Source: Actinomycetales bacterium (GTDB lineage: Bacteria > Actinomycetota > Actinomycetes > Actinomycetales > Kineosporiaceae). Taken from it: a stretch of DNA of 64,000 nt. The translations under genes and the position numbers were made by a program. This document shows positions 16,955-61,139 of this stretch, piece by piece; the stretch's first letter is position 1; each line of letters begins with the position of its first letter. Location: positions 1-64,000 of the forward strand of contig JAAYAH010000222.1 of assembly GCA_012719445.1 (NCBI GenBank). The letters run 5' to 3'. The notes below the pieces were generated by a model. That model saw only the letters and a program-made list of their open reading frames with translations. It ran no database searches and was not told the origin of the DNA.

Positions 16955-18718
16955 TCAGGCCGGGCTGCAGGTGACGCTGACGCCGCTGCCGTTGCCGGTG
17001 CCCTGGAAGCCGAAGCTCGTGTTCTGCGCGGCGCCGAGGCTTCCGTTGTAGGCGGCGTTGGAGACGGTCACCTCACCGGAGGTGCCCGACAGGGTGCCGT
17101 TCCAGAGGTTGGAGACGGAGGCGTCGCCGAGGTTCATCGTGACCCGCCAGCCCCTGATCGCCGAGCTGCCCGCCGTCACGGTGACGTTGGCCACGAACCC
17201 GGTGGGCCAGGAGCTGGCGACGGAGTACGACGCCGTGCAGGCGCCCTCGCCACCGCTGGTGGTCGTCGTGGTCGTCGTGGTGGTGCGCGGGCTGGTCGTC
17301 GTCGTGGTGGTGCGGGGGCTGGTCGTCGTCGTGGTGCTGGTGGGGCCACCGCCGCCGTAGCGATCGGCCAGGCTGATGCCCGTGGTGGACCCGGAACCGC
17401 CGAGCGGGACCTGGTGGTCGAGGCTGACGAACTTGCCGCCGTGCTGCCACAGGGCGGGCCTGAGCATCTTGTACTTGGTCTCGTCCCAGGTCTTCCAGTC
17501 GTCCAGCAGCAGGCCGCCGGTGTCACCGGAGTTGGGGTTGAGGCACCAGAAGGTCTGGTGCAGCCCGTTCTCGGTGATCAGGTCGCGCAGGGCGGTCATC
17601 CACTTGTCCTGCCGGGCGTCCTGGCCGAGACGGCCGCCCCACTCGCCGATGAGCAGCGGAGCGATCTTCTCCTCGTGGATGTAGAGCCAGTTCGGCTGCC
17701 ACACGTCGGTGGTCAGCGAGTCCTTGTCGAACGTCCCCGTGAACCACGGCTGCTCGTACACCAGCGGGCCGTAGTCGTGCGGCGAGTAGACGAGCTGGTC
17801 CTGGTTGGCGCCCAGGTTGACCGGGTAGTCACGCACTCCGCGCAGGTTCCCGCCCCACCAGTTGTTGTAGAAGTTGGACGACCGGTCGGGGTTGGTGCTC
17901 GGCGAGTCCCAGGTCTGCCCCGGCCGCGGGTAGGCCTCGATGCCCTCGACCAGCACCAGCACGTTCGGGTTGATGGCCAGGATCCGCTTGGCCGCGGTCT
18001 CCGCCGTGTACTTCCAGTTGTCGACGTCGGTGGAGCCGTCCCACTTGGCGCGCGGGGAGGTGTCCGGCTGACCGTGCGGCTCGTTCTTCAGGTCCATCGC
18101 CACGATGGTGTCGTTGTTCTTGTAACGGGCTGTGACCCACTCCCAGCCCTGGTAGAACATCTCCGGGGTGATCGTGCCCTTGTACCACATGGGTGCGATG
18201 TGGCCGGAGTTGTCTGCCTCGGCGCTGTGCAGGTCGAGCAGGACCTTGATGCCGTACTTCTCGCAGAGTTCCAGCCAGTAGTCGAAGACCTGCAGGCTGT
18301 TCTTTCCGGTCAATTCCGGGTTGGCGTAGGTGTTGACGTTCACCGTACCGAAGGTGCCGGCCTTCCACTCCAGCAGCAATTGCGTGGAGATCGGGACCCG
18401 GACGAGGTTGATGCCCCGGTCGGCCATCGCCTTGGTGATCTCGGTGACGTTGCCCGACCACAGCCCGTGAAAGACCCGCTCGGAGGCGTTGAAGCCGAAC
18501 CAGTTCGCCCCGGTCAACCACACCGGGTTACCGGCCTGGTCGACGATCTGATTGCCCTGCACGTGCAACCAGTCGTTTTCCGGCACGGCCGCTGAGGCCG
18601 TCTGTGAGCCGCTCACGGGGAGTACCGCTGCCACGGTCGCCATGACAGCGGCCGCTGCCAGTCTGGCCCGTCCGCTCCGGCGTCCCGACAGAGGGTTGCG
18701 TCCCTCGACGGTCGACAT
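16955..18718 (-). CDS. Secreted GH5 endoglucanase with C-terminal CBM2
   Basis: 587 residues from ATG 18718 with AAGGAGATCA upstream. A signal peptide (about 1-44, ending ASA) precedes a GH5 barrel (about 48-445). The acid/base Glu lies in DLKNEPHG (near 211) and the nucleophile Glu in LLIGEWGG (near 358); other hallmarks are [15 protein letters not shown] and YSPHDYG. A Thr-rich linker (about 455-485) made of SPRTTTTT repeats joins a family 2 cellulose-binding module with paired Cys, conserved Trp (GWRVTMNL) and NAAYNG. The enzyme cuts internal beta-1,4-glucan bonds outside the cell. Codons show the host pattern. Products could feed the importer and GH3 enzyme at 32.7-38.5 kb. Confidence 0.95.
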
Positions 18719-19416
18719 AGAGTGATCTCCTTCGGTCTCGGGTCGGGGGGACCCGGGGGTGCGACGGTCCACGGTGACGGAGCCAAAGGATCCGGGCGCC
18801 GGAGGGATGTCGCCGTTCAATGAGGCGCACTCTAGAACGTTTCTCGGTTCGAGGGAACAGGGCCCTGCTGTCGCGGGCGGCACTTCCTCGGGAGCGTCGC
18901 CGTCGGTGGGGGATCGGTTACTGATCCCAATGCCGGAAAGGCTTTCCCGGGGATATTCCGGGGTGCCGACGAGCAGGTATGACGGTGCGACTTCCCTGGT
19001 TACTCACGGTAACGATGTGTGGGTGGGTGTCATATTCCAGAAAAGGAATCCCGATCGAGGTCGACCGGTCCTCCCCGAGCGCCGGAACCGGACCGGGGAC
19101 GCGCTCGTTGGTCGACGTGCCGGACAGCGGTCGCGGCCGACCGGGGACCCGCCCGGATGCGCCGGGCCGGAGACCTGGTCGGGACGCCCGATCGGTCCCA
19201 CGACCGGCTCCGGTACGAGGAGGGGCGTTCCGTGTCGTCACCGCAGCCGTGGTCACCGCAGCCGTCGCGCCGCCGGTGCGGGTCGTCCGTGAGCCCGTAC
19301 GGGGTGGGAGACCGGGCACCGATATCTTCCCGGTACCCGCTGTGACGTCGGAGAGGTCCCCGCGGCCCCGCGTGTCGGCTCCCGTGGACCACGCAAGGAA
19401 GCGGTGCTGAACCCGA
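18719..19416. other. Gene-poor 698-bp gap, divergent promoter region
   Basis: No convincing gene. It separates the leftward cellulase from the rightward isoprenoid synthase. GC is lower near 18890-19050. A partial palindrome centred on AACGTT (TCTAGAACGTTTCTCG at about 18831-18846) resembles the central core of LacI-family operators and lies about 115 bp upstream of the cellulase start; the classic CebR 14-mer is not present. Confidence 0.5.
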
Positions 19417-20748
19417 ATGAGCATCCTGCAGGACCTCGACGGCCCGTTCCCCTTCGGGCGGACCGATCTCGCGGCGGACCGTCTCACGGTCGGCGCGCGG
19501 CACACCGTCGCGCACTTCGTCCGCTGGCGGGACCGCAACCAGGACGCGATCGCCGGGCACGTCGACCGGTACACCCGGCACCTGGAGACCCTCGTGCCGC
19601 GGTCGGGACTCGCCTCCGCCGTCCGGTACCGGGTCCTGCCGCGTTCCCGCCGCCGGGAGCGGTACCGGGAGATCGCCCGAGAGGTGAACTACTTCGGCGT
19701 GTTCAACCTCGGCGAGGTCCCCGACCCCGCTCTGGTCGCCGCGATCGTCGACGGCTTCGGCGGCAGGGTGCCCTCGGTGACGGGGATCCTCGCGGACCTG
19801 GACGGGCACCGTGGAGCTGCCGGCGTCGTGGAGTCGCTGGAGCGGCACCTGCCGGTCCTGGCCGAGGTCCCGGACACCCGATGGCTGGGGGAGCGGCTGG
19901 ACCGGCTGCACCGCATCCTCCCCGAGTCCGTCGTCCGGGCTGGCGGCATGGGCAAGGCGGTCCGGGCCCTCGCGGGGGTGCTCGTCATCGGGGCGTTCGA
20001 CACCCTCGACGCCGATCCCGCGGCCCGGCGGGAGCACCTGGCGCGGATCGTGCCCGCCGCCTACGCGCTGGGCGCCGCGTACGTGATCGTCGACGACACG
20101 CTGCAGGACCTGCCGGGCGGCCACGTCTCGCCGGCGGACCGGGACTGGTGCCACCGGGCGATCCTGCACGGGCTCACCACGGGGGAGGCCGTCGACGTCG
20201 TCGGGATGCCGGACCACCCGGTGGCCGAGGAGCTGCACGAGCTCTACGGGATGCTCCGGGAGAGCCACCCGTTCGCCGAGCACCGGCACCTCTACCAGGC
20301 CGCCGAGGCCATGTACCTGGCCCAGCACCGGGACGCGGCCAGGACGGTCGCGGACGTCGAGGCAGGCGGGCTGGCGGCGATGTACCCGGACCTCCTGGTC
20401 AAGGCCGGGGTGAGCAGGGTGGTCGCGAACGCCGTCGGGCGGCGGCGGCTCCCGGACGGTGCCCTCGCCCGCTGCCTCAACACGATCCTGCTCGGGCAGT
20501 TCCGGGACGACCTGCGGGACCGCGACGAGGACCGGGACGCCGGGAGGGTGACCCCGTTCACCGTGCCGCCGGACCTGCTGGACGCCGACCCGCTGCACGA
20601 CCTCTTCGCCTACGACGCCTATGTGGCGTCGGAGGTGTTCGGCGGCGACCCGACCGCGGCGGAGACCCTGGTCTCCGTCGGGGCGGTGAAACTGGCGAAC
20701 CACCTGTCCGCCGACCCGGGCCGGGCCGAGGAGCTGCTGCGTGACTAA
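19417..20748 (+). CDS. Isoprenoid-synthase-like domain protein (first half of an interrupted didomain enzyme)
   Basis: 443 residues from ATG 19417. It looks like an all-helical class I isoprenoid synthase: a first Asp-rich motif VDDTLQD (D226, D227, D231) and a second motif GQFRDDLRD (D364, D365, D368), 138 residues apart as in prenyl-diphosphate synthases. There is no clear NSE/DTE motif of a terpene cyclase. The frame ends at TAA 20746-20748, but the same frame stays open straight after it and runs into a complete polyprenyl-synthase domain at 20794-21768 with no ribosome site between. This half is therefore best read as the N-terminal domain of one roughly 783-residue protein. A substrate cannot be assigned. 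Confidence 0.75.
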   Translation: MSILQDLDGPFPFGRTDLAADRLTVGARHTVAHFVRWRDRNQDAIAGHVDRYTRHLETLVPRSGLASAVRYRVLPRSRRRERYREIAREVNYFGVFNLGEVPDPALVAAIVDGFGGRVPSVTGILADLDGHRGAAGVVESLERHLPVLAEVPDTRWLGERLDRLHRILPESVVRAGGMGKAVRALAGVLVIGAFDTLDADPAARREHLARIVPAAYALGAAYVIVDDTLQDLPGGHVSPADRDWCHRAILHGLTTGEAVDVVGMPDHPVAEELHELYGMLRESHPFAEHRHLYQAAEAMYLAQHRDAARTVADVEAGGLAAMYPDLLVKAGVSRVVANAVGRRRLPDGALARCLNTILLGQFRDDLRDRDEDRDAGRVTPFTVPPDLLDADPLHDLFAYDAYVASEVFGGDPTAAETLVSVGAVKLANHLSADPGRAEELLRD

Positions 20749-20793
20749 CGGGTCGGCGCCGAGATCAGCCGCTTCCTGCGCACCGCCGCGGGG

Positions 20794-21768
20794 ATGCCCC
20801 GGCGCCTGGTCGCGCACCTGGAGCCCGCGGACACCCGGATCAAGGACCACTGCGCCGCGGTGCTGAGGACGAGGGACCAGCGGGCCGTCGACGCGCGGAC
20901 CTTCGTCGCCGACCGGCTGCCGTACATCAACGAGCTGACCTGCAGCAGCTACCCGCAGGAGGGCGCGACCGGGCTGGACCGGATCGTGGCCTACGCCATG
21001 AACGCACCGGGCAAGCGGCTCCGTCCCGCCCTCGGGCTGATGCTCGCCGAGGAGCTGGGCGTCGACACGGAGGCCGTCGGATCGTTCGTCGTGGCGTGCG
21101 AGCTGTTCCACACCGCGAGCCTGGTGTTCGACGACCTGCCGGCACAGGACGACGCCACGGTGCGGCGGGGCAGGCCGACGGCGCACACCGTCTTCGACGA
21201 GGGCAGCGTCCAGCTCGCCGCCGTCTCCATGATCTCCTCGGGGTTCGGCATCCTCGCCGGGCTTGCCGACAGGTACCCGGCGGAGCGGGTGACCGAGGTG
21301 ATCGCCTACGTCGGGTCGGTCCTCGGGCCGGAACGCCTGTGCCGCGGGCAGGACCTCGACCTGCACCTGGGCCGGGAGGGCGGCCCGCCGGTGACCGGCG
21401 AGGCGATCCTGGAGATGTACGAGCTCAAGACGTCGACGAGCATCGAGGCGTCGCTGGTGCCGCTGATGATGCTCGAGGGCAGGCCCGCTGCGGAGACCGA
21501 CCTCGTCCGGCGGTACGCCCGCCACGCCGGCATCGTGTTCCAGATCCGCGACGACATGCTCGACCTCACGTCGTCGACCGAGACCATCGGCAAGGACGCG
21601 GGGCTCGACGTGGGGAAGGTAAACGTCGTCCGGGTCTTCGGACTCGACGAGGCGAGCCGGCTCATACAGGCCCACCTGGCGGACGCGATCGCCTGCTGCG
21701 AACGGCTGCCCTTCGACACCCGCCTGCTCGTCGGCATGGTCACCCACTTCGCCACCCGCAGGCGCTGA
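20794..21768 (+). CDS. Polyprenyl diphosphate synthase domain (second half of an interrupted didomain enzyme)
   Basis: 324 residues if begun at ATG 20794; the same frame is open back to the TAA at 20746. Motifs: NAPGKRLRPALGLMLAEELG (diphosphate-binding), first Asp-rich motif VFDDLPAQDD (D113, D114, with the conserved RRGRPTAH after it), GQDLDLH, YELKTSTSIEASL (KT motif) and second Asp-rich motif FQIRDDMLD, then TIGKDAGLD. These are diagnostic of trans-prenyltransferases making geranyl-, farnesyl- or geranylgeranyl-type diphosphates. GTVFQ-like chain-length cues are not decisive. With the N-terminal half it would form a bifunctional or regulatory fusion; alone it could still be active if translated. 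Confidence 0.88.
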   Translation: MPRRLVAHLEPADTRIKDHCAAVLRTRDQRAVDARTFVADRLPYINELTCSSYPQEGATGLDRIVAYAMNAPGKRLRPALGLMLAEELGVDTEAVGSFVVACELFHTASLVFDDLPAQDDATVRRGRPTAHTVFDEGSVQLAAVSMISSGFGILAGLADRYPAERVTEVIAYVGSVLGPERLCRGQDLDLHLGREGGPPVTGEAILEMYELKTSTSIEASLVPLMMLEGRPAAETDLVRRYARHAGIVFQIRDDMLDLTSSTETIGKDAGLDVGKVNVVRVFGLDEASRLIQAHLADAIACCERLPFDTRLLVGMVTHFATRRR

Positions 21769-21867
21769 CGCGGGTCCGCTCCGGGCGCCGTGCGGGCTCG
21801 CCCCCACCGTCGCCACCCGCAGGCGGTCCGGCACCCCGGAGGCGGTGCGGTGGGTCACCGTGCCCGG

Positions 21868-43387: not shown

Positions 43388-45049
43388 ATGAGTGCCTGGT
43401 CCGCAGGGGCGGTCTTCCTCGTCTCCCTGGTGGCGGCCCTGGTCGTGGTCTATCGGCCGATGGGTGACTACGTGTACAGGGTCGTCTCCTCGCCGAGGCA
43501 TCTGCGGGTGGAGCGGTCGCTCTACCGGGTGATGGGGGTCGACCCGGACGGTGAGCAGCCATGGGGTGGGTACGCCCGCTCTGTCCTGGCGTTCTCCGCG
43601 GTCTCGATCCTGTTCCTGTACGCGTTCATGCGGCTGCAGAACCGGCTGTGGCTGTCTCTCGGGTTGCCTGCGGTGAAGCCGGACGGGGCGTGGAACACCG
43701 CGGTGAGCTTCGTCACGAACACGAACTGGCAGTGGTATTCGGGGGAGTCCACGATGGGCCATCTCGTGCAGATGGCGGGGTTGGCCGTGCAGAACTTCGC
43801 CTCCGCCGCTGTCGGTATCGCGGTCGCCGTGGCGTTCGCGCGGGGCTTCGCCCGGAGCAGGACGGCGCAGTTGGGCAACTTCTGGGTCGACCTGGTGCGG
43901 GTCGTGCTGCGGGTCCTGCTCCCGATCTCCGTTCTCGTCGCGATCGTGTTCGTCGCGGCCGGCATGGTGCAGAACCTCTCGGCGGGCACGGACGTGCACA
44001 CCCTGGCCGGGGCGACTCAGCACCTCACGGGTGGCCCGGTGGCCAGCCAGGAGGCCATCAAGGAGCTGGGGACCAACGGCGGCGGCTTCTACAACGCCAA
44101 CAGTGCTCACCCGTTCGAGAACCCGACGTCCTGGACGAACTGGATCGAGGTCTTCCTGCTGCTGCTCATCCCGTTCTCCCTGCCACGCACGTTCGGCCGG
44201 ATCGTCGACGACAACCGGCAGGGGTATGCGATCGCCGCGGCGATGGCCGTGCTGGCCCTGGGCAGCCTGGTGACGATCAACGTGCTGCAGGGTGTCCACG
44301 GGGGAACGGTGCCGCAGGCCGTGGGAGCCGCGAGCGAGGGAGTGGAGACCCGGTTCGGGGTCTTCGATTCGGCGACCTTCGCCTCGGCCACGACGCTGAC
44401 CTCGACGGGGTCGGTGAACTCCTTCCACGACTCCTACACCGCCCTGGGCGGCGGGGTGACGATCGTCGACATGATGCTCGGCGAGGTCGCACCGGGCGGG
44501 ACCGGCTCGGGACTGTACGGGATGCTCGTCCTGGCCGTGATCACCGTGTTCGTCGCCGGGCTCATGGTCGGGCGGACCCCGGAGTACCTCGGGAAGAAGA
44601 TCGGCGCCAGGGAGGTGAAGCTCGCCTCGCTGTACTTCCTGACCACCCCGCTGCTCGTGCTGACCGGTGCCGGGATCGCGATGGCCCTGCCCGGTGAACG
44701 GGCGGCGATGCTCAACCGCGGGCCCCACGGCCTCTCGGAGGTGCTCTACGCCTTCACCTCCGCGGCCAACAACAACGGCTCGGCCTTCGCCGGGCTGGGC
44801 GTGAACACCACCTGGTACGACAGCGCTCTCGGCCTGGCCATGCTGCTCGGCCGGTTCGTCCCCGTGGTCCTCGTCCTCGGCCTGGCCGGGTCGCTGGCCG
44901 CACAGAAGCCGGTGCCGGCCTCGGCCGGAACGCTGCAGACCCACCGTCCGCTGTTCGTCGCCATGCTCGTCGGGGTCACGGTGATCCTCGTGGCGCTGAC
45001 CTTCCTGCCCGCCCTGGCTCTCGGGCCGCTCGCCGAGGGGGTGCGCTGA
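43388..45049 (+). CDS. kdpA: KdpA, potassium-binding channel subunit
   Basis: 553 residues from ATG 43388, full length (usual about 557). Ten membrane segments with four pore-loop regions; typical words are [45 protein letters not shown] (selectivity loop) and [14 protein letters not shown]-like [15 protein letters not shown]. KdpA picks up K+ from outside with high affinity and passes it to KdpB. Three bases separate it from kdpB. Confidence 0.98.
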
Positions 45050-45052
45050 GCG

Positions 45053-47245
45053 ATGACGGCCGCCCTCGCCCACGAACCGTCCGCCGGCCGTGAACCGTCC
45101 ACCAGCGCCGCCGGCCCCGGACCGCACCGGATCTCCGGCGGCCTGCTGGAGCCCCGGCAACTCCTGGCCTCGCTCCCGGGGGCCGTGCGAAAGCTCGGCC
45201 CCCGGACCCTGTGGCGCAACCCGGTCATGTTCATCGTCGAGATCGGCGCGATCTTCACCACGGTCCTGGCCGTCACCGACCCCTCGGTGTTCGCCTGGTC
45301 GATCACCGTGTGGCTGTGGCTGACCGTGGTGTTCGCCAACCTCGCCGAGGCCGTGGCCGAGGGCCGGGGCAAGGCACAGGCGGACACCCTGCGCCGGGCC
45401 AAGAAGGACACCGTGGCCAGGCGGCTGCCCGGCTGGAGTCCCGGCACGACCGCCCGGGAGGCCCTGGGCCGGGTGGAGACCGTTCCCGCGTCGCAGCTGC
45501 GCCAGGGGGACGTCGTCGTGGTCGAGGCCGGCGAGATCATCCCCGGGGACGGCGACGTCGTCGAGGGGATCGCCAGCGTCGACGAGTCCGCGATCACCGG
45601 GGAGTCCGCGCCGGTGATCCGGGAGTCCGGGGGCGACCGCAGCGCGGTCACCGGCGGCACGAAGGTGCTCTCGGACCGGATCATCGTGCGGATCACCCAG
45701 AGGCCGGGGGAGAGCTTCATCGACCGGATGATCGCCCTCGTCGAGGGAGCGAACCGGCAGAAGACCCCCAACGAGATCGCGTTGAACATCCTGCTCGCCG
45801 CGTTGACGATCATCTTCCTGCTGGCGGTGGCGACCCTGCAGCCGCTGGCGATCTACTCCAAGCGCGTCCAGGCCTTCGCCCCCGACTCCCTCGCCCTGAA
45901 CGGCAACGGCGTCACCGGCATCGTGCTGGTGTCCCTGCTGGTGTGCCTGATCCCGACCACGATCGGGGCGCTGCTGTCGGCGATCGGGATCGCGGGGATG
46001 GACCGGCTGGTCCAGCGCAACGTGCTGGCCATGAGCGGACGGGCGGTGGAGGCCGCGGGGGACGTGAACACCCTGTTGCTGGACAAGACCGGGACCATCA
46101 CGTTGGGCAACCGACAGGCCAGCGAGTTCGTCCCGCTCGGCGGTGTCACCGAGCTGGAGCTGGCCGACGCCGCGCAGCTGTCCAGCCTGGCCGACGAGAC
46201 CCCGGAGGGCCGCTCCGTGGTCGTGCTGGCCAAGCAGCGGCACGGGCTGCGGGAACGCACTCCGGGGGAGCTGGCCCGCGCCGAGTGGGTGGAGTTCACC
46301 GCGAAGACCCGGATGTCCGGGGTCGACCTGGGCGAGGACGGCAGCGCCCGCAGGATCCGCAAGGGCGCGGCGACCGCCGTCATGACCTGGGTACGCGACC
46401 ACGGTGGGTACCCGCCGGGGGAGGTGGACTCGATCGTGGATGGGATCTCCGCCTCCGGTGGCACCCCGCTGCTCGTCGCGGAACACCCCGCCGGGCAGCC
46501 GGCCCGGGTGCTCGGGGTCATCCAGCTCAAGGACGTCGTCAAGCAGGGCATGCGCGAGCGGTTCGAGGAGATGCGCCGGATGGGCATCCGCACCGTGATG
46601 ATCACCGGGGACAATCCGCTGACCGCACGGGCGATCGCCGCCGAGGCCGGCGTCGACGACGTCCTCGCCGAGGCCACCCCCGAGGACAAGCTCGCCCTGA
46701 TCAAGCGGGAGCAGGCCGGCGGCAGGCTGGTGGCGATGACCGGGGACGGCACCAACGACGCCCCGGCCCTGGCCCAGGCCGACGTCGGGGTCGCCATGAA
46801 CACCGGCACCTCCGCGGCGAAGGAGGCCGGCAACATGGTCGATCTGGACTCCGACCCGACCAAGCTCATCGAGATCGTGGAGATCGGCAAGCAGCTGCTC
46901 ATCACCAGGGGAGCGTTGACCACGTTCTCCATCGCCAACGACATCGCGAAGTACTTCGCGATCATCCCGGCCATGTTCGCCGCGGTCTACCCGGGCCTGG
47001 GCAGGCTCAACGTCATGGGCCTGCACAGCCCGACCTCGGCGATCCTGTCCGCGGTGGTCTTCAACGCGCTGGTCATCGTGGCGCTGATCCCGCTGGCCCT
47101 GCGCGGGGTGCGTTACCGCCCCGCCAGCGCCGCGGCGATGCTGCGCCGCAACCTGTGGATCTACGGCGCCGGGGGCATCGTCGCCCCGTTCCTCGGCATC
47201 AAGCTCGTCGACCTCCTCGTCCAGTTCGTCCCCGGGATCTCCTGA
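45053..47245 (+). CDS. kdpB: KdpB, P-type ATPase subunit
   Basis: 730 residues from ATG 45053. The phosphorylated Asp is D344 in [13 protein letters not shown]; the actuator loop reads [12 protein letters not shown]; the nucleotide domain has KGA and the hinge [18 protein letters not shown]. Membrane segment 4 carries the family [15 protein letters not shown] motif. KdpB drives K+ uptake by ATP hydrolysis with KdpA and KdpC. The N-terminal 30 residues are an Ala/Ser/Pro-rich tail. Its stop overlaps the kdpC start (TGATG). Confidence 0.98.
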
Positions 47246-48126
47246 TGCGTCTGCCCCCCTGGCTCGCCCAGCACCTCGCCGCCCTGCGGACCCTGCTCGT
47301 GCTCACCGTGATCGCCGGGATCGCCTACCCGCTGGCGGTCACCGCGATCGCCCAACTGCACGGGTTGCGACACCACGCGAACGGATCCCTGGTCACCGTC
47401 GACCACACCGTGGTGGCCAGCTCGCTCATCGGCCAGTCGTTCACCGACACCGGGGGGAAGCCCCTCCTCCGGTACGTCCAGACCCGGCCCTCCGCCGCGG
47501 GCGCCGGATACGACCCCACCGCCACCGGGGCGTCCAACTTCGGCCCGGAGAGCGTCGTCGACACCCTTCCCGGACCCGCCGACCCCACCGGTGAGCAGAG
47601 TCTGCTCACCCGGGTGTGCGCCCGCAGCCTGGCGGTCGGCCGGTTGGAGGGCGTGGACGGCGCCCGGCCCTACTGCACCCCGGACGGCGTCGGTGCCGTT
47701 CTCGGCGTCTTCCACCGCGACGGGGTCACCGGAGGCGTGACCCGGGTGGTCAGCCTCAACCAGGCCTGCCCCGCCGCCCCGTTCCTGACCACCTATCGGG
47801 GTGTGCGGGTGGAGTGCGCCCGCCCCGGCCAGGACTACTCCCATGCCGTCGTCACACCCATCCGGGGAGACGCCCCCGCACACCCCGCCGTCCCGCCCGA
47901 CGCGGTCACCGCCAGCGGCAGTGGTCTCGACCCTGCGATCAGCCCCGCCTACGCCCGGCTCCAGGCACCCCGGGTGGCCAGGGCCCGCGGGATCGACGTG
48001 ACGACGGTGGACCGGCTCATCACCGCGCACACCACGCGGCGGGCGCTCGGCTTCCTCGGCGAGCCCTCGGTCAACGTCGTCACGCTCAACACCGACCTCG
48101 ATCGGAGGTACCCCGTCCCCGGATGA
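47245..48126 (+). CDS. kdpC: KdpC, potassium-transporting ATPase subunit with a long insertion
   Basis: 293 residues from ATG 47245 (usual about 190-200). The N-terminal helix (LAALRTLLVLTVIAGIAYPL) and GSLVTVDHTVVASSLIGQSF, YVQTRPSAAGAGYDPTATGAS and the end GLDPAISPAYARLQAPRVAR plus LGFLGEPSVNVVTLNTDL are standard KdpC. An extra segment of about 90 residues (roughly 115-205) separates them and brings four Cys, which on the outer face could form disulfides. KdpC stabilises the complex and aids ATP binding. Confidence 0.95.
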   Translation: MRLPPWLAQHLAALRTLLVLTVIAGIAYPLAVTAIAQLHGLRHHANGSLVTVDHTVVASSLIGQSFTDTGGKPLLRYVQTRPSAAGAGYDPTATGASNFGPESVVDTLPGPADPTGEQSLLTRVCARSLAVGRLEGVDGARPYCTPDGVGAVLGVFHRDGVTGGVTRVVSLNQACPAAPFLTTYRGVRVECARPGQDYSHAVVTPIRGDAPAHPAVPPDAVTASGSGLDPAISPAYARLQAPRVARARGIDVTTVDRLITAHTTRRALGFLGEPSVNVVTLNTDLDRRYPVPG

Positions 48127-48211
48127 GCCGCGACCTTTCCAGGTGACCGGGATCGGCCCCCACGACCACCGGGCTCACCCAGAACCGCAGGCAAGCAGCC
48201 ATACGCACCGG

Positions 48212-48286
48212 CAGCCACGCACCAGCAGCCACACGAACCAGAAGCCACGCACCAGCAGCCACACGAACCAGCAGCCACGCACCAGC
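48212..48286. repeat. 30-bp tandem repeat, 2.5 copies, between kdpC and kdpD
   Basis: Units at 48212-48241 and 48242-48271 differ at one base and a half unit follows to 48286. Each contains AGCCACGCACCAGCAGCCAC. The region is A/C-rich and open in one frame (48143-48373), which would give a His/Ser/Thr/Gln-rich repeated peptide, but no ribosome site supports it. The repeat may separate kdpFABC from kdpDE expression. Confidence 0.6.
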
Positions 48287-48409
48287 CTCACCGGAGCCGC
48301 CCACCCGGACCAGGAGAGATCGAGGTCGGCAGCGGTGTGCAACTCCCGGAGAGGACCGGTACCGCCACGGTGACCCGGTGGCCGGGCCGGGCCGGAAGGA
48401 GGGAGTCGG

Positions 48410-51082
48410 ATGTCTCGAGGACGGCTGCGCGTCTACCTCGGCGCCGCTCCCGGGGTCGGCAAGACCTTCCGGATGCTCGACGAGGCGCATCGGCGACGAG
48501 ACCGCGGCACCGACGTGGTCATCGGCTACGTCGAATGCCACGGCCGTCGCCGCACCGAGGAACGCGCCATGGACCTGGAGATCGTGCCCCGACAGGAGAT
48601 CACCTACCGGGGCGTGGTCTTCACCGAACTGGACGTCGGCGCGGTGATCTCCCGTCACCCCGGGGTGGTGCTGGTCGACGAGCTCGCCCACACCAACATC
48701 CCGGGTGCTCGCCACGCCAAGCGCTGGCAGGACGTCGAGGAGATCCTCGACGCCGGGATCGACGTCATCACCACGGTGAACATCCAGCACCTGGAGTCCC
48801 TCAACGACGTCGTCGCCCAGATCACCGGCATCACCCAACGGGAGACCGTTCCCGACCAGGTCGTACGGCGTGCCGAGCAGATCGAGCTGGTCGACATGAC
48901 CCCCGAGGCCCTGCGCCGACGGATGGCCCACGGCAACATCTACACCCCGGAGAAGATCGACGCGGCTCTCGGCAACTACTTCCGGGTCGGCAACCTCACC
49001 GCGCTGCGCGAACTGGCCCTGCTGTGGCTGGCCGACAAGGTCGATGACCAACTCGACCGCTACCGCGCAGAGCACCACATCTCCTCCACGTGGGAGACCC
49101 GGGAACGCGTCGTCGTGGCCCTGGCCGGTGGCCCGGAGGGCGACACGATCATCCGCCGCGCGGCCCGGGTCGCCGCCCGCACCAAGGGCAGCGACCTGCT
49201 CGCCGTCCACGTGGCCCGCAACGACGGCCTCGCCGGCGCAGACCCCGCCCACCTGGCACGACAGCGGGCCCTGGTCGAGCACCTGGGTGGGACCTACCAC
49301 CAGGTCGTCGGCAACGGCGTCCCCACCGCCCTGCTGGACTTCGCCCGTGGCGTCAACGCCACCCAGCTCGTGCTCGGGGTCAGCCGTCGTCACCGGCTCG
49401 CCCAGGTACTGAGCCCGAGCGTCGGCACGATCACCACGCGTGAGTCCGGGCCGATCGACGTGCATCTCGTCACCCACGAGACCCGCAGGCAGCCGCTGCC
49501 GCTCCTCGGGGTGACCCAGGCGCTCAGCCGACGGCGCAAGGCGACGGGATACGCGGTGGCCGCCCTCGGACTGCCCGCCCTGACCGTGCTGCTCTCCTGG
49601 CTTCGCGGAGACCTGAGCCTGCCGAGCGACATCCTGCTGTTCCTGGCCTGGATCGTGGTCACCGCGTTGGTGGGCGGCCTCTTCCCGGCGCTCGTCGCGG
49701 CCGTCGCGGCCTTCCTGCTGCTCAACTACTACTTCACCCCACCGCTGTACCGGTGGACGATCGCCGACCAGGAGAACCTGCTCGCCCTGGTGGTGTTCCT
49801 CGCCGTCGCCGTCGCGGTGTCGGCGGCGGTGGACCGCGCGGCCCGAACCGCCATGGACGCGGCGCGGGCACGCGCCGAGGCCGAGACCCTGTCCACCGTC
49901 GCCGGGAACGTCGTCCGCGGATCGCGACCCCTGCTCGCGCTGCTGGACCAGTTGCGCGAGACCTTCACGTTCGCCAGCGTCAGCCTCCTGGTCCGCCGTC
50001 CCGACGCCCTCCCGCGGCTGGACGCACGCTCGGACCCGGCCGCGTGGCGCCTGGCCGCCGCGGTGGGTGACCGCCCGTGTGTCACCCCCGCCGAGGGAGA
50101 CGTCGACATCCCGGTCGACGAGACCACGGCCCTGGTCCTGCGCGGCCACGCCCTGGACGCCGCCGACCGCCGCGTGGTCGAGGCCTTCGCCGCCCAGGCA
50201 GGAGCAGCCCTGCACCAGGAACACCTCGCCACCCAGGCAGCCGCCGTCAAACCCCTGGCAGAGGCCGACAAGCTGCGCACCGCCCTGCTGTCCGCGGTCA
50301 GCCACGACCTCCGCACGCCCCTCGCCTCGGCCAAGGCGGCGATCTCGAGCCTGCGCAGCCAGGACGTCGTCTTCAGCGAGGAGGACAGAACCGAGCTCCT
50401 GGCCACCGCCGACGAGTCCCTCGAACGCCTCGTCCGACTCGTCGAGAACCTCCTGGACATGAGCCGGCTCCAGGCCGGCGCGCTCGGCATGTCCCCGCAG
50501 ACGATCAGCGTCGCCGACGCCGTCGCGAAGGCCCTTGCCGACCTCGGGCCGCCGGGCCGCCCCGTCGTGGCCCAGATCCCCCACCGCCTCCCCGAGATCC
50601 GCGTCGACCCCGGCCTGCTCGACCGCATCCTGGCCAACGTCCTGTCCAACGCCCTGCGCTACAGCCCACGCGGCTACCCCCCCATGGTCACCGCCAGCGC
50701 CTACGCCGGGAACGTCGAGATCCGCGTCATCGACCACGGCCCGGGCATCCCCACCACCCACTGGGACCAGGTCTTCCTGCCCTTCCAACGTCTCGGGGAC
50801 CGCGTCACCGACAACGGTGTCGGCCTCGGCCTGGCCCTGTCCCGCGGGCTGGCCGAGGCCATGGGCGGGCACCTGGACCCCGAGATCACCCCCGGTGGGG
50901 GGCTGACCATGACCCTGCAACTGCCCGCCGTCCGTCCCACCGGCCCCGCGGAACACCCCCCGGAGGACACCGCGGACGTCGAGCCGGAGCCGACATTCAC
51001 CGAACCCGTCGCGGCGGCACCTCACCCGGCAGGCACCGCAGACACCCACGACGACGACCACCCGGAGCACCGGGATGGCTAG
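48410..51082 (+). CDS. kdpD: KdpD, potassium-responsive sensor histidine kinase
   Basis: 890 residues from ATG 48410 with GGAAGGAGGGAG upstream. The N-terminal KdpD domain has Walker A GAAPGVGKT (residues 11-19) and VLVDELAHTN; a universal-stress-protein-like domain follows (about 225-370). Four membrane helices (about 380-485, with LLNYYFTPPLYRW) lead to a GAF-like part, then phospho-acceptor H632 in AVSHDLRTPLASAKA and the ATPase boxes NVLSNALRYS, DHGPGIP and GVGLGLALSRG. The last 45 residues are Pro/Glu/His-rich. It senses K+ limitation or osmotic stress and activates KdpE, whose gene overlaps its 3' end by eight bases. Confidence 0.97.
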   Translation: MSRGRLRVYLGAAPGVGKTFRMLDEAHRRRDRGTDVVIGYVECHGRRRTEERAMDLEIVPRQEITYRGVVFTELDVGAVISRHPGVVLVDELAHTNIPGARHAKRWQDVEEILDAGIDVITTVNIQHLESLNDVVAQITGITQRETVPDQVVRRAEQIELVDMTPEALRRRMAHGNIYTPEKIDAALGNYFRVGNLTALRELALLWLADKVDDQLDRYRAEHHISSTWETRERVVVALAGGPEGDTIIRRAARVAARTKGSDLLAVHVARNDGLAGADPAHLARQRALVEHLGGTYHQVVGNGVPTALLDFARGVNATQLVLGVSRRHRLAQVLSPSVGTITTRESGPIDVHLVTHETRRQPLPLLGVTQALSRRRKATGYAVAALGLPALTVLLSWLRGDLSLPSDILLFLAWIVVTALVGGLFPALVAAVAAFLLLNYYFTPPLYRWTIADQENLLALVVFLAVAVAVSAAVDRAARTAMDAARARAEAETLSTVAGNVVRGSRPLLALLDQLRETFTFASVSLLVRRPDALPRLDARSDPAAWRLAAAVGDRPCVTPAEGDVDIPVDETTALVLRGHALDAADRRVVEAFAAQAGAALHQEHLATQAAAVKPLAEADKLRTALLSAVSHDLRTPLASAKAAISSLRSQDVVFSEEDRTELLATADESLERLVRLVENLLDMSRLQAGALGMSPQTISVADAVAKALADLGPPGRPVVAQIPHRLPEIRVDPGLLDRILANVLSNALRYSPRGYPPMVTASAYAGNVEIRVIDHGPGIPTTHWDQVFLPFQRLGDRVTDNGVGLGLALSRGLAEAMGGHLDPEITPGGGLTMTLQLPAVRPTGPAEHPPEDTADVEPEPTFTEPVAAAPHPAGTADTHDDDHPEHRDG

Positions 51083-51758
51083 GGTCCTGATCGTCGATGA
51101 CGAACCTCAGATCCTGCGCGCGCTGCGGATCAACCTCCTCGCCCGCCAACACGAGGTCGTCACAGCCGAGGACGGCACCCAGGCACTGGCCGCCGCCGGC
51201 CGTCAACACCCCGACCTGATCGTCCTGGACCTCGGCCTGCCCGACCTCGACGGAGTCGAGGTCATCCGCAGCCTCCGCACCTGGACCCCGATCCCGATCG
51301 TGGTGCTCTCCGGTCGCGCCGACAGCCAAGACAAGATCGACGCACTGGACGCCGGCGCAGACGACTACGTCACCAAGCCCTTCAACATCGACGAACTCCT
51401 CGCCCGCATCCGCGCCGTGACCCGACGCACCACCCCCGCCGAGATCGACCTCACCGTGCGAATCGGCCACCACGACATCGACCTGACCGCCCATACCGTC
51501 CACCGCAGCGACGACCCCGCGGTGTCGGTGCACCTGACCCGCACCGAATGGCAACTCCTGAGCATCCTGGCCCGCAACCCCGGGAAACTGATCAGCCAGC
51601 GGCAGCTCCTCCAACAGGTCTGGGGCCCCACCTACCAGGAGGAGACCCAGTACCTGCGCCAGTACATCGCCCAACTCCGTCGCAAGCTCGAAGACGACCC
51701 CTCCCGGCCCCGGCACATCATCACCGAACCCGGCATGGGCTACCGCTACACGCCCTGA
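51075..51758 (+). CDS. kdpE: KdpE, OmpR-family response regulator
   Basis: 227 residues from ATG 51075. Receiver motifs: VLIVDDEPQILRALRINL, phospho-Asp in LIVLDLGLPDLDG, VVLSGRADSQDKI and VTKPFNIDELLAR. The C-terminal winged helix has HLTRTEWQLLSILARNPGK and YLRQYIAQLRRKLEDDP, ending EPGMGYRY, as in KdpE. It should activate the kdp promoter upstream of 42696. It is coupled to kdpD. Confidence 0.97.
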   Translation: MARVLIVDDEPQILRALRINLLARQHEVVTAEDGTQALAAAGRQHPDLIVLDLGLPDLDGVEVIRSLRTWTPIPIVVLSGRADSQDKIDALDAGADDYVTKPFNIDELLARIRAVTRRTTPAEIDLTVRIGHHDIDLTAHTVHRSDDPAVSVHLTRTEWQLLSILARNPGKLISQRQLLQQVWGPTYQEETQYLRQYIAQLRRKLEDDPSRPRHIITEPGMGYRYTP

Positions 51759-52056: not shown

Positions 52057-52719
52057 GTGATTCGGGCTGTGGTCTTCGACGTCGGCGAGTGCCTTGTGGA
52101 CGAGACAACGGAGTACGCCACCTGGGCCGACTGGCTCGGGGTTCCTCGGCATACCTTTCACGCTGTGTTCGGCGCGGTGATCGCTCAGGGGCGTGATTAC
52201 CGGGAGACCTTCCAGGAGTTCCGGCTGGGCTTCGACCTGGAGGTGGAGCGGGAGAAGCGTGCACGGGCGGGGCGGCCGGAGAGCTTCGGTGAGGCGGATC
52301 TGTACCCGGATGTGCGGGAGGCGCTGGCGGCTCTACGTGCCGACGGGCTGTGGCTGGGCATCGCTGGGAACCAGACGGTGCGCGCTGGGTCGATCTTGCG
52401 TGAGTTGTTCGCCGGGGATGTGGACCTGATCGGTACCTCTGGCGACTGGGGGGCCAGTAAGCCGGATCCGGGGTTCTTCCGCCGGGTTGCCGAGGTCACG
52501 CCCTTCCCCAGCGACGAGATCCTTTACGTGGGCGACCGGGTCGACAACGACCTTCGACCCGCCAGGGAAGCGGGCATGCGCACGGCCTTGGTCCACCGTG
52601 GCCCCTGGGCGTTGATCCAATGGCGTAGTACGGATGCGGAGAAGCTGCCGACCTTCCGGGTCGAGAGTCTGCGTGAGCTGCCGGGCCTGATCCAGGGCTT
52701 CAACGAGCGAGCGCGCTAA
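52057..52719 (+). CDS. HAD-superfamily phosphatase-like hydrolase
   Basis: 220 residues from GTG 52057. Catalytic motif I reads VVFDVGECLVDET, in which the second Asp is replaced (DVGE instead of DxD), motif II is GIAGNQT, motif III Lys in ASKPDPGFF and motif IV VGDRVDNDLRPAREAGM. The altered motif I is common in the HAD-like subgroup with DVGGVL, so activity is uncertain. Start: GTG with GATACT 16 bases upstream, so the transcript may be leaderless. Its end overlaps the convergent regulator gene by 20 bases. Confidence 0.87.
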   Translation: MIRAVVFDVGECLVDETTEYATWADWLGVPRHTFHAVFGAVIAQGRDYRETFQEFRLGFDLEVEREKRARAGRPESFGEADLYPDVREALAALRADGLWLGIAGNQTVRAGSILRELFAGDVDLIGTSGDWGASKPDPGFFRRVAEVTPFPSDEILYVGDRVDNDLRPAREAGMRTALVHRGPWALIQWRSTDAEKLPTFRVESLRELPGLIQGFNERAR

Positions 52720-53926
52720 CCGTCGTCGACCACCCGTACAGACGGTCGTCGAGTTCCCGGACGCATCGCTGGTGTTGGTGAGGTGTCAGCTCGCGTCGTA
52801 CCTCGCGGACCCGGTCCATGCCCATCGCGTACCAGGTGCGCTCCAGTTGGTCGAGGGCGCGCAGCACGTAGCGGCAGGCCTCTTCGGGGTCGCCGGCTGC
52901 TGCCTCGACCGCGGCGAGGTCTCCGAGGACGACCGTCGTCTGCTTCTCCTCGCCCGGACTGAGGGCGTCGAGCACTCCGAGCAGGGTCTCGCGGGCCTGG
53001 GGCAGGTGTCCGGCCTTCAACTGGGTGTTGCCCTTGAACGCCGCCAGCCGGACCGGGCTGAACCAGTCCAGCCACGGTGGGCTGGGGTGCTCGGATCCGG
53101 TGGCGAGGATGTCCTCGGCGTGTCCGGTCAGGCGTAACGCTGCTCGGGTGTTTCCGCAGCGGGTCTCGCACTCCGCCTCGACCGCGTCCAGCCAGGCGAG
53201 CAGCTCCGCCGAGGCGGCGCCCCGGCGGGCGTAGGTGCGTGCGGCGATCATCCGCTCGACGGCTGCGTCCCGTTGGCCTGCCCAGCCGGGGATGAACGCG
53301 GTGTGGGCCAGGATGGCCGCGCCTAGCAGGGGATCGTCGGCTTCCCCCGCGGCCTGGAGCGCGAGTAGCAGGGTGCCTCCGGTGCGGTCGGCCTCGCGCA
53401 GGTCGAAGAACTCGATGCGTCCGGCGAGTAGGTAGGACTCGGCGAGGGCCGCAGCGACCGTACGACGCGTCTGCCCAGTGGTTTCGGTGAGCAGTGCGCA
53501 GCCGAGGGCGGCGTGGGCCTGGACGGCGGGATGCAGGGTGGCGGGGGCGACCGACCAGTACAGGTGTCGGTGGGCGCGGGTGATGGCTGCGAAGTCGGCG
53601 GCGACGGAGGCCGGTTGCACGGTGACTGGCTGTGTCGGTACCGCCGCCATGCCGATCGCCGCGGTCGTGGACGCGCCAGCGGCAGCTCTCCGGCTATCAC
53701 CTCGCATGACGGGGGACGGGGGGAACCCGAGCAACTCCAGGTCCTGGCCGAGCAGGCGGGTCAGCGCCTTGCCCACCTCGGGTTGTGGGCGCGGAGGGTT
53801 CTCGGACTCCCAGCGACGCACCTGCCGGACTCCCACGCCGAGAGCATCGGCGAGGGCCTGCTGGGAGCCGAATCCGGCTGCCAGGCGCGCTGCCTTGAGG
53901 CGGGTGTTGCCCGCGGGTCGTGGCAT
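52700..53926 (-). CDS. XRE-family HTH regulator with a TPR-like C-terminal domain
   Basis: 408 residues from ATG 53926, eight bases after GGAGG. Residues 8-65 form a helix-turn-helix (LKAARLAAGFGSQQALADAL, GVGVRQVRRWESENPPRP). The rest is alpha-helical with repeated pairs like TPR (LAESYLLAGRIEFFDLREAD, AHTAFIPGWAGQRDAAVERM, GNTQLKAGHLPQARETLLGV). Such regulators are common beside mobile and secondary-metabolite genes in actinomycetes and bind a peptide or small ligand. It is divergent from the methyltransferase gene; phased repeats in between may be its operator. Confidence 0.87.
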   Translation of the reverse strand: MPRPAGNTRLKAARLAAGFGSQQALADALGVGVRQVRRWESENPPRPQPEVGKALTRLLGQDLELLGFPPSPVMRGDSRRAAAGASTTAAIGMAAVPTQPVTVQPASVAADFAAITRAHRHLYWSVAPATLHPAVQAHAALGCALLTETTGQTRRTVAAALAESYLLAGRIEFFDLREADRTGGTLLLALQAAGEADDPLLGAAILAHTAFIPGWAGQRDAAVERMIAARTYARRGAASAELLAWLDAVEAECETRCGNTRAALRLTGHAEDILATGSEHPSPPWLDWFSPVRLAAFKGNTQLKAGHLPQARETLLGVLDALSPGEEKQTTVVLGDLAAVEAAAGDPEEACRYVLRALDQLERTWYAMGMDRVREVRRELTPHQHQRCVRELDDRLYGWSTTVSALAR

Positions 53927-54009
53927 GTCCAGCACCTCCGTTGAGTACTGAGGTCAGTGTCGCTCAGAGTCCTTATTCTGACCAGATCACTTTCAGATCA
54001 GGCTAGCAA

Positions 54010-54049
54010 AAGTCCTCTCTGTGCGCCTAGAAGTCCTCTTGAAGTCCTC
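54010..54049. promoter_or_regulatory. Three phased AAGTCCTC repeats between the XRE regulator and the methyltransferase
   Basis: AAGTCCTC starts at 54010, 54031 and 54042: spacings of 21 and 11 bp, that is two turns and one turn of DNA. Just left, AGATCA is repeated 11 bp apart (53984 and 53995). The helical phasing suggests protein binding, most simply by the neighbouring HTH protein. Confidence 0.5.
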
Positions 54050-54170
54050 GTTAGTGCCACATGAGGCGGACATGCTGGTTCTCGACGACCTACGTGGCGA
54101 AGGCCGGGAGTGGCGGCAGTCGATGAGCGTTAGCACTGAGGCGAACGGTGGCATGCGGCTGGAGCGTGGC

Positions 54171-55040
54171 ATGCGGTGTCCGGTGTCGTCGCCACCGGAG
54201 GACAGTGTGCGGGCCAACCCGGCGCGGGTGTACGACGCCTGGCTGGGCGGGAAGAACCACTACGCCGTGGACCGGATCGTCGCCGACCGGATCGCGGCGG
54301 TGACACCGTTCGTGGTGGCTGGAGCCCGGGCCAACCGCGCGTTCCTGCGTCGGGCGGTGACCTACCTGGTCCGGATCGGCGTCGATCAGTTCATCGACGT
54401 CGGGTCCGGGCTCCCGACGGTGCGCAACGTGCACGAGGTAGCCCGGCGGGTCAATCCCACTGCCCGCGTGGCCTACGTGGACCTCGACCCGGTGGTACTG
54501 GCGCACGCCCGGGCACTGCTGGCCACCGACGAGCACACGATCGTGGTCGAGGGTGATGCCCGGAACCCGCGGGCGATCCTCACCGACCCCGCATTGACGG
54601 CGCACCTGGATCTGTCCAGGCCGGTGGCCGTGCTGTTCGTCGCCGTCCTGCACTTCCTCACCGACACCGATGACCCCGGTGCCGTGGTGGACGCCTTCCG
54701 CCGTGCCATGGCCCCGGGCAGTCACGTGGTCATCTCCCACGTGACTCCCGGGGAGCCTGGTCAGGAGTCCGGCATGGCCCAGGCCGTGGGGCTATGCGCC
54801 AGCGGGGCGGCGCCGTTCACCCCGCGGACCCGCGCTCAGGTCCGGCAGCTGTTCACCGGGTTCGAGCTGGTGGATCCGGGCGTGGTGCCGGCGCAGCGCT
54901 GGCGTCCTCACGGGCCCCAGGCCCGCACCGTTCTTCCGATCATCGCCGGAGTCGGTCGCCTGCACGGCGCGGGCGCGACTCCACCGCGTCGAGGGATCAG
55001 TTCGAGGAGGAGGTGCACGGTGACCGATCCACCGACCTAG
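54171..55040 (+). CDS. SAM-dependent methyltransferase of the DUF574 type
   Basis: 289 residues from ATG 54171, seven bases after GGAG; earlier in-frame ATGs at 54123 and 54021 are alternatives. The opening NPARVYDAWLGGKNHYAVDR is the family signature. The SAM pocket is FIDVGSGLPTVRNVHEVA with acidic YVDLDPVVLAHARALL, then DARNPRAIL and VAVLFVAVLHFLTD. These enzymes are highly expanded in actinomycetes; targets are mostly unknown. The C-terminal 25 residues are basic. It is followed by a terminator-like hairpin and heads the cassette with the SAH-hydrolase-like gene, whose substrate would be its by-product. Confidence 0.9.
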   Translation: MRCPVSSPPEDSVRANPARVYDAWLGGKNHYAVDRIVADRIAAVTPFVVAGARANRAFLRRAVTYLVRIGVDQFIDVGSGLPTVRNVHEVARRVNPTARVAYVDLDPVVLAHARALLATDEHTIVVEGDARNPRAILTDPALTAHLDLSRPVAVLFVAVLHFLTDTDDPGAVVDAFRRAMAPGSHVVISHVTPGEPGQESGMAQAVGLCASGAAPFTPRTRAQVRQLFTGFELVDPGVVPAQRWRPHGPQARTVLPIIAGVGRLHGAGATPPRRGISSRRRCTVTDPPT

Positions 55041-55068
55041 AGCCCGAGAGCCGGCTCATTCAGGTGGG

Positions 55069-55107
55069 CCGGGCCACCCGCAGCTGGCACGCGTGGGGGT
55101 GGCCCGG
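55069..55107. terminator. 11-bp hairpin after the methyltransferase gene
   Basis: CCGGGCCACCC (55069-55079) and GGGTGGCCCGG (55097-55107) pair perfectly around a 17-nt loop, 29 bp past the stop. Likely an intrinsic terminator without U-tract. Confidence 0.55.
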
Positions 55108-55230
55108 TCAGGGGCTTGCACCCCGGTATCGGATGGTACCGGGGCAATCGTGCTCGTTGCGGCACACAGCAGGTGTCGCGTCCCCCGGGACCGCAGGCGC
55201 AGGCCACGGCACATGGGGAGCTGAGCAGGG

Positions 55231-55617
55231 TTGAGGCCCGCAGAACACCACCGGCACGAACCGAACCACCACATCACCGACGACCCGGTATCCCTGGGGG
55301 ATGGTGAGGACGACCAGGTCCCCTGGGTCCCGGTCACTCCTGGCGAGGTGCAGCATCTTCTCGCCGCCTATCGGCAGGCGCAGGCCTTCGCCGAGGTCCT
55401 GCGCGGATTGCTGCTGGCAGCCGGGCTGCCCGCGACGGATCTCCCAGTGATCGTTGCGAGTGTCGATGCCGACGGCGAGCCGGTGGTTCGGGTGAGCCGG
55501 CTCGATCAGGGGTCGTGGCGGCGTCTGGAATGCCTCTGGCACGAAACGCGGCGGGCACAGCGAGCAGGCGGCGTCGGGATGGGTGGACGCCGAGCCCGAC
55601 GCATGCGAGCCGCGTGA
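55231..55617 (+). CDS. Hypothetical protein
   Basis: 128 codons from TTG 55231 with GAGCAGGG upstream; a GTG in PWVPVTPG further in is another possible start. The middle (PGEVQHLLAAYRQAQAFAEV, LRGLLLAAGLPATDLPVI) forms a helix pair, then a beta segment VVRVSRLDQGSWRRLECLW. The C-terminal end is Arg/Gly-rich. Small proteins like this occur beside AICE genes; no function known. The 289-bp gap after it (55618-55906) holds no other gene I can support. Confidence 0.5.
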   Translation: MRPAEHHRHEPNHHITDDPVSLGDGEDDQVPWVPVTPGEVQHLLAAYRQAQAFAEVLRGLLLAAGLPATDLPVIVASVDADGEPVVRVSRLDQGSWRRLECLWHETRRAQRAGGVGMGGRRARRMRAA

Positions 55618-55906
55618 GACAGGGCATGGAGGCCGCCAACAGCGTGCCTGGCCGTGCCTGGCGGGGTGTGTCACCGGAGCCCCGCATCGTCACGGTGGTG
55701 GATCGGGCGCGGGCGGGTGCCGGGCCGGGACCGGCGCCTCAGCGCCGCATGCCCGGCCCGAGCACCAGGGTCGCGCCCCGGCCCCGCCAGGGGCCGGGCT
55801 TGATGAGTAGGGCGAATGTTGCACAACTCCGCTCGCCGGCCGGATCCCCGGCGCTGGTCGGCGAGCGGCCGTGGGTCGGTTGTCGGCGCGGGTGGAAGGA
55901 AGCGGG

Positions 55907-57028: not shown

Positions 57029-57034
57029 GGTGTG

Positions 57035-57580
57035 ATGATCACAGCGGCGGCTATCCGGGACACCCTCCTCGGCTACCTGCGACGTCACCCGACCGAACAG
57101 GTCGAACTGGCCCCCGTGCTGGATCTCCTGGGCGCCGGGGCTGACCTGACCAGTCGGTCCGAGGCCCGTGGACATCTCACCGCCGGCGCGATCCTCCTCG
57201 ACGGTCGCGGACGGGTGTTGCACGTCCACCACCGGGCGTTGTCGCGGTGGCTGCTGCCCGGCGGGCACCTCGAACCCGGCGACACCGACCTGCAACATGC
57301 CGCGCTGCGGGAACTCAGCGAAGAGACCGGCATTGACCCCGCACGCGTGAGCGCGGTCGGGCAGGAGCCGGTGCACATCGACGTCCACCCCATTCCCGCG
57401 AACCCGGCCAAGGGCGAACCGGACCACCAGCACATCGACCTGCGCTACCTGTTCCGCACCGACGGCGATGTCCAGCAGCTGCAGGCCGAGGAGGTCATCG
57501 ACGCCGCCTGGCGGGAGGTCGGGGCCATGACCGATCCCGTTCTCCGGGAACGCATCACACTCGCTGTCGCCGACGCTTGA
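57035..57580 (+). CDS. Nudix hydrolase
   Basis: 181 residues from ATG 57035 (GTG 57032 also possible). The Nudix box is GGHLEPGDTDLQHAALRELSEETG, here quoted only by its ends: GGHLEPG and RELSEETG, giving the metal-binding REx2EE. A helical N-terminal part (about 1-45) precedes the Nudix fold (45-170). Nudix enzymes cut nucleoside diphosphates linked to another group. Coupled to the SAH-hydrolase-like gene; Nudix genes are frequent cargo of AICEs, possibly acting on a signal nucleotide or sanitising pools. Confidence 0.92.
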   Translation: MITAAAIRDTLLGYLRRHPTEQVELAPVLDLLGAGADLTSRSEARGHLTAGAILLDGRGRVLHVHHRALSRWLLPGGHLEPGDTDLQHAALRELSEETGIDPARVSAVGQEPVHIDVHPIPANPAKGEPDHQHIDLRYLFRTDGDVQQLQAEEVIDAAWREVGAMTDPVLRERITLAVADA

Positions 57581-57694
57581 TTTTCACCGCACCCGGCCGA
57601 TCCCCGATGCCGCTGCCCCCGGGCCGGGCCTTCGGTGGCCGGCGCGTCGACCGGCCGGCTGCCGCCGCGCCTGTCGTTTCCGCGGCAGAACAGC

Positions 57695-58531: not shown

Positions 58532-58689
58532 CTCTCTCCGTGGGGGTCCTGCCGGCGCCTCGTGGCCGGTGTTCTGGGGACCCGTGGCCTGCATCTCGAC
58601 CCGTCTCGTGTGGTCGTGTGTGACGGGAGTGCACCCCAGTTCTGTCGTGTAGCTGGAGTCAACCGGAGCGCACCAGTGTTACCCGTACG

Positions 58690-58766: not shown

Positions 58767-58795
58767 CTTGATGAGAGTGAGAGGCAGGGATGGTC

Positions 58796-60893: not shown

Positions 60894-60949
60894 CCCGCCG
60901 TGAAGCGATCCGTGTCCGTGACGAGCCCGTGGAGGGAGGTGATACCTGG

Positions 60950-61084: not shown

Positions 61085-61139
61085 CCCGCACCCCCACCGA
61101 TCACACCGTGACGGTGGGCCCCCTGGAAGGAGACCTGCG

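Follow-up and report, generated by a model that had tools for sequence, protein, structure and literature searches.

A two-domain isoprenoid synthase-like gene split by an in-frame stop codon in an actinomycete

The window, the whole stretch of 64,000 nucleotides of actinomycete DNA that was analysed, carries on its + strand at 19417-21768 a gene whose relatives encode one long fused protein, and which is split in this genome by an in-frame TAA codon at 20746-20748. On balance, we favour the account in which the family product is a two-domain class I polypeptide of about 780 residues, with a relay from the C-terminal to the N-terminal half, and in which a nonsense substitution has split the gene here. 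The C-terminal half is, by family match and motif content, an ordinary short-chain trans-isoprenyl diphosphate synthase (IDS; PF00348). The N-terminal half is probably, judged from its conserved residues, a second and very divergent class I isoprenoid synthase. The enzyme family appears to be uncharacterised, while the TAA by itself is ordinary and most simply one strain's broken copy.

Reading frame

Translation of 19417-21768 yields 784 codons with one internal stop and a final TGA at 21766-21768. Residues numbering 443 and 339 are encoded in one frame, and nothing but the TAA lies between them, as the earlier note had claimed. Coding character carries on unbroken past the TAA. Third-position GC is 0.96 in the N-terminal half, 1.00 in the first 150 bases past the stop and 0.97 in the C-terminal half, against 0.74 upstream of the gene. 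The alignment of homologues crosses the TAA column gap-free, and the five nearest homologues share 53-58% identity with the window protein in the N-terminal half and 54-71% in the C-terminal half; the continuity of the frame beyond the stop is therefore not a matter of chance.

The start codon of the N-terminal half, ATG 19417, has a Shine-Dalgarno pairing energy of -9.1 kcal/mol. The first in-frame start past the stop, the ATG at 20794-20796 (+ strand), is without a Shine-Dalgarno sequence by the same measure (-1.1 kcal/mol; 96% of random positions pair more strongly), and the second, GTG 20860, is at background level (-4.9 kcal/mol). A ribosome site for the second half, which the earlier note held would speak against its view that coding resumes at once without one, was sought through Shine-Dalgarno energies at both codons, and no convincing site was found at either. 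The TAA lies between the domains, about 45 residues ahead of the C-terminal synthase domain. As a gene end, TAA is rare in the window but used (two of 40 gene ends, that at 20746-20748 counted as one). A 942-residue frame is also open antisense to the whole gene (19030-21858, - strand); we rejected it as a real gene and regard it as a shadow of the high-GC codon bias.

Homologues and the origin of the stop

Homologues were searched for in about 1,400 genomes and in one scan of a species-level contig collection, and the ten that were found are sparsely and patchily distributed over several actinomycete families. The scan of the contig collection with the N-terminal half returned one locus, in Allorhizocola rhizosphaerae (L002). 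Two further homologues come from genomes in the window's own family (L003, L004), two from sister species of one other genus (L008, L009), four from one genus of a further family (L010, L012, L013, L014) and one from another genus of that same family (L116). The window protein and six of the homologues form the motif-bearing set (n = 7) referred to below, and L010, L012, L013 and L014 the motif-less set. Relatives of the gene were looked for on plasmids and viral contigs, and none were found there. Weak matches at L117-L119, which lie on the frame of a beta-lactamase-like serine hydrolase, and at L011, whose frame runs antisense to another coding stretch, were taken as chance. Gene neighbourhoods have nothing in common outside the motif-less clade and the sister species L008 and L009, and they hint at no product.

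All ten homologues are single fused open reading frames through the stop column and none is split. The uninterrupted relatives of about 780 residues for which the earlier note proposed a search are thus at hand, and the consistently separate genes that it named as contrary evidence are the opposite of what is seen; we reject two genes as the ancestral state. At the stop column, Tyr is found in six of six motif-bearing homologues (TAC in five, TAT in one) and His in four of four motif-less ones. Since the homologues have Tyr or His there and none has a stop, the TAA is, by this comparison, derived and private to the window's genome. A nonsense mutation is its likeliest origin, with one genome of the species in the data set.

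The earlier note had offered mutation, error or readthrough for the stop, and of these mutation has come out ahead. A sequencing or assembly error, with the gene intact in the living strain, is the more doubtful reading: the assembly is a draft of 283 contigs and the TAA is the one lesion among 784 codons, which show no further decay, but the genome is otherwise good (99.3% complete, 1.85% contamination) and isolated base errors are rare in assemblies of this quality. Programmed readthrough into a full-length protein is scarcely credible, even with the coding frame uninterrupted on either side, since TAA is usually the tightest stop codon, none of the ten homologues has a stop at that column, and the linker around the codon is variable and offers no conserved context. 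It also seems improbable that the split is functional, with the halves acting in trans as separate proteins and the second made by reinitiation or internal initiation. Neither 20794 nor 20860 has a ribosome site, every homologue is fused, and conserved residues (RFL) lie between the TAA and the first start; in its favour, the position of the stop about 45 residues before the C-terminal domain leaves both domains nearly whole, the C-terminal half is still fully open and coding-like, and separation of the two domains of the fungal fusicoccadiene synthase PaFS costs only about twofold in rate (PMC8190136).

The C-terminal half

The C-terminal half (20749-21768, + strand; 339 residues and the TGA) consists of a linker followed by the trans-IDS domain. 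It matches PF00348 in Pfam with 136.6 bits (E 1.1e-39; cut-off 27), and its closest solved structures, from a search of PDB sequences, are FPP/GGPP synthases (E 4.6e-46). The nearest NCBIfam models are those for FPP synthase and CrtE, and the half scores below every NCBIfam cut-off. Its IDS motif set is complete. By alignment, the IPP-binding element GKRLRP is at 21010-21027; it is followed by the first Asp-rich motif with the Arg pair after it (DDLPAQD..RRGR, within DDLPAQDDATVRRGR, 21130-21174), by YELKTST and by the second Asp-rich motif, QIRDDMLD (21541-21564), all on the + strand. Both Asp-rich motifs are conserved in the seven motif-bearing proteins. In view of what is established on chain-length control, a C20 product is suggested by the sequence TASLVFDDLPAQDD, which, like CrtE-type GGPP synthases, has small residues ahead of its Asp motif. 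In L008 and L009 (also in L015 and L016), GQPxGT-like repeats are inserted near the start of the C-terminal half, between the first helix and GKRLRP, and their copy number differs between the close species L008 and L009.

The N-terminal half

The N-terminal half (443 residues; 19417-20745, + strand) is a divergent domain with an IDS-like signature and no assigned family. Searches of Pfam (none at E 1), NCBIfam, PHROGs and PDB sequences gave no match, and the statement in the earlier note that this half has no nameable relative holds in all four collections. Two PDB rows, at E 0.02 and 1.4, were taken as chance. Profile-profile similarity to the C-terminal half, actinomycete IDS, phytoene synthases and terpene synthases was not significant, as 4 of 120 shuffles equalled the score. 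A significant profile match to PF00348 was likewise absent (hhalign best P 0.037), and squalene/phytoene synthase PF00494 gave no Pfam match, with similarity limited to a motif of 31 columns (P 0.0078). Also, no sequence match to terpene synthases was obtained in Pfam or by profile comparison, and the motifs read DDTLQD and DDLRDRDED.

The signature itself is made up of four elements on the + strand. K180-x-x-R183 (in GGMGKAVRA; 19954-19965) is the putative counterpart of the GGKxxRP IPP-binding element of trans-IDS, and its Lys is invariant in the seven motif-bearing proteins. The first Asp-rich motif, DDTLQD (residues 226-231; 20092-20109), has its DD and last D invariant in the same set. 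Further on, K329-A-G-x-S-R334 (20401-20418), likewise invariant in the seven, would correspond to the catalytic Lys-Thr of IDS (YELKTST). The second Asp-rich motif, QFRDDLRDRDEDRDAGR (residues 361-377; 20497-20547), opens with QFRDDLRD (residues 361-368), and Q361, D364, D365, D368, D372, G376 and R377 are invariant in the seven. The two Asp-rich motifs per half listed in the earlier note (DDTLQD and QFRDDLRD; DDLPAQDD and QIRDDMLD) are thus all present.

Across the seven proteins, K180 and K329 are the only invariant Lys of the N-terminal half, and 226-227 and 364-365 are its only invariant Asp pairs. Its elements repeat the C-terminal order of K-x-x-R, DDxxxxD, Lys-Thr and DDxxD, with spacings of 46/103/35 versus 39/99/41 residues. 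Shuffling the columns 200,000 times never reproduced this order and spacing, and placing the same units at random did so in 12 of 200,000 trials; the figures are indicative because the test was framed after the motifs had been seen. It is because the invariant Lys and Asp pairs repeat the order and spacing of the C-terminal signature that we take the N-terminal half to be probably a second class I isoprenoid synthase. The same assignment in the earlier note gains from the motif arrangement and finds no significant profile similarity on its side. The Arg pair that IDS has after the first Asp motif is absent from the N-terminal half in the window and in its relatives.

Structure prediction adds a suggestion in the same direction. 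AlphaFold models from two-row alignments were poor for both halves (pLDDT 40 and 39) because the alignments held only two sequences; as the C-terminal half, a certain IDS, is equally poor, the low confidence is uninformative on the N-terminal half. When the N-terminal model (pLDDT about 40) was compared with PDB chains, 28 of the 50 rows listed were terpene or prenyl synthases (best Z 6.9), and the strongest were sesquiterpene and diterpene synthases. At that model confidence, the fold matches to class I synthases are suggestive only.

The N-terminal half could instead be a class I terpene cyclase with non-canonical motifs, as in classes IB to IF, which would make the protein a bacterial counterpart of the fungal chimeras with a convergent order, cyclase first and synthase second. 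We regard this as possible and hold it tentatively. D364, D368 and D372, invariant in the seven, are spaced (+4, +8) like the N/S/E residues of the terpene-synthase triad; sesquiterpene and diterpene synthases lead the fold rows of the low-confidence model; the domain order is that of the fungal chimeric terpene synthases, or PTTS (PMC8307374; PMC8190136); and actinomycetes are known to have class I synthases that sequence does not reveal (PMC11234867). However, profile comparison with 29 actinomycete PF19086 sequences was null, and K180-x-x-R183 and K329 are prenyl-transferase elements. To our knowledge, cyclases are without these K-x-x-R and Lys elements. From sequence, then, K180/R183 and K329 would favour a transferase, while the spacing of D364, D368 and D372 resembles the cyclase triad.

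A sister clade without either signature

The four motif-less homologues (L010, L012, L013, L014; also in L017-L020) have kept the fused frame, at about 708-717 residues, and the signatures of both halves are gone. In the N-terminal half, K180 and K329 are replaced (the surrounding segments read GAMDRA and ETGAGG-like, respectively), DDTLQD is deleted, and the QxxDD of the second motif has become RxxHD (QFRDD to RFRHD or RLRHD). In the C-terminal half, GKRLRP has become GPLRP, and neither DDLPAQD..RRGRPTAH, which is deleted, nor the second DDxxD survives. In the tree, the clade stands next to L116, a motif-bearing homologue of the same family, and the loss of the signatures is therefore derived. 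As both were lost together, the two active sites would be tied to one function, and this joint loss is the best evidence from the comparison that both halves may serve one pathway.

The place of the motif-less gene is conserved: ftsK-like, RNase J-like and dapA-like genes flank it on one side, and the other side has rimO/pgsA-like genes (names read from the sequences). Its pN/pS is 0.5-0.6, compared with about 0.2 in the neighbouring genes. All four lineages are free of stops and frameshifts, whereas in simulation a neutral gene acquires 1-4 stops at 0.05-0.2 substitutions per site. On these two grounds, constraint on the gene is relaxed but not neutral. A clade that has dropped both active sites would provide a natural test of how catalytic domains persist as non-catalytic proteins.

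Relation to known systems

PTTS were described in 2021 as unique to fungi (PMC8307374). In PaFS, GGPP from the C-terminal domain is cyclised by the N-terminal one, and a linker of 70 residues lies between the two domains (PMC8190136). The family described here resembles them in having one polypeptide of about 700-800 residues with a trans-IDS at the C end and a class I-like domain with two Asp motifs at the N end, a layout seen in all ten homologues and broken by the TAA in the window. It differs in being bacterial and in its N-terminal half, which is without detectable terpene-synthase similarity or an NSE motif as such and has the IDS-like K-x-x-R and Lys. If that half is a functional class I synthase, bacteria would own fused two-step isoprenoid synthases, a layout once called fungal-only (PMC8307374), and with them a domain family that escapes genome mining by profiles.

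The family also resembles geosmin synthase, a bacterial enzyme of about 720-800 residues in which two class I isoprenoid-synthase domains stand in tandem. With that precedent attached, the claim of the earlier note that a bacterial double protein of about 783 residues is unusual stands. Both domains of geosmin synthase belong to the cyclase family PF19086, whereas here a PF00348 C-terminal half follows an N-terminal half of no known family, and no PF19086 match was found in either half. In another genome, a PF19086 match adjoining a second one (L049, G493:C7:36931-37401; a geosmin-synthase-like pair) also has an in-frame TAA.

The C-terminal half is like short-chain trans-IDS (FPP/GGPP synthase, CrtE) in all its signature motifs, and unlike them it is fused behind a domain of 440 residues. 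Structure-guided mining has shown that actinomycetes hide class I synthases that cannot be recognised from sequence (PMC11234867). Similarly to such non-canonical class I terpene synthases (classes IB-IF), the present family is actinobacterial and sequence-unrecognisable, with its gene outside a terpene cluster; compared by motifs only, its N-terminal half differs from the published motifs of classes IB, IC and ID. No description of a bacterial fusion of a PF00348 C-terminal half with such an N-terminal half was found in the literature searched, which left out most subscription journals. It is conceivable, and we put it forward with reserve, that these genes represent undescribed bacterial assembly-line isoprenoid synthases, in which a cryptic and strongly diverged isoprenyl-synthase domain was fused before an ordinary one independently of the fungal chimeras, and that the sister clade lost both active sites and kept the double protein, presumably for a non-catalytic role.

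Proposed function and fate of the gene

In the account that we favour, the product of the family gene would be a single chain of about 780 residues in which two class I isoprenoid-synthase domains are joined. The C-terminal half is predicted from family membership to condense IPP with an allylic diphosphate to a diphosphate of probably C15 or C20. The N-terminal half, which appears to have the two Asp motifs for Mg binding as well as the K-x-x-R and Lys elements known from IDS, may then use this product, either for cyclisation or for coupling to another acceptor such as a further prenyl unit. Being fused, the halves would pass the intermediate on at short range, as in fungal PaFS. In the window's genome, a nonsense substitution at the conserved Tyr position of the interdomain region would have split the gene, and the two-step enzyme would be lost or reduced unless inefficient reinitiation yields the C-terminal half. 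Two further isoprenyl diphosphate synthases are intact in the genome, one by nuoN and one by crtB, and no PF19086 terpene synthase match was found anywhere in it, so loss of the gene in this strain should be tolerable.

Other genes in the window

Upstream of the gene and divergent from it lies a secreted cellulase-like protein (16955-18820, - strand) with a Thr-rich linker and a C-terminal domain of cellulose-binding type. Translations of the open reading frames at 43388-51758 read as an ordinary kdp-like potassium transport cluster with a sensor kinase and a response regulator. Further, what looks like an integrative element with a replication-type protein takes up the end of the window (about 52069-63998), where a small excisionase-like DNA-binding protein is encoded at 62878-63207 and an integrase-like open reading frame starts at 63366.
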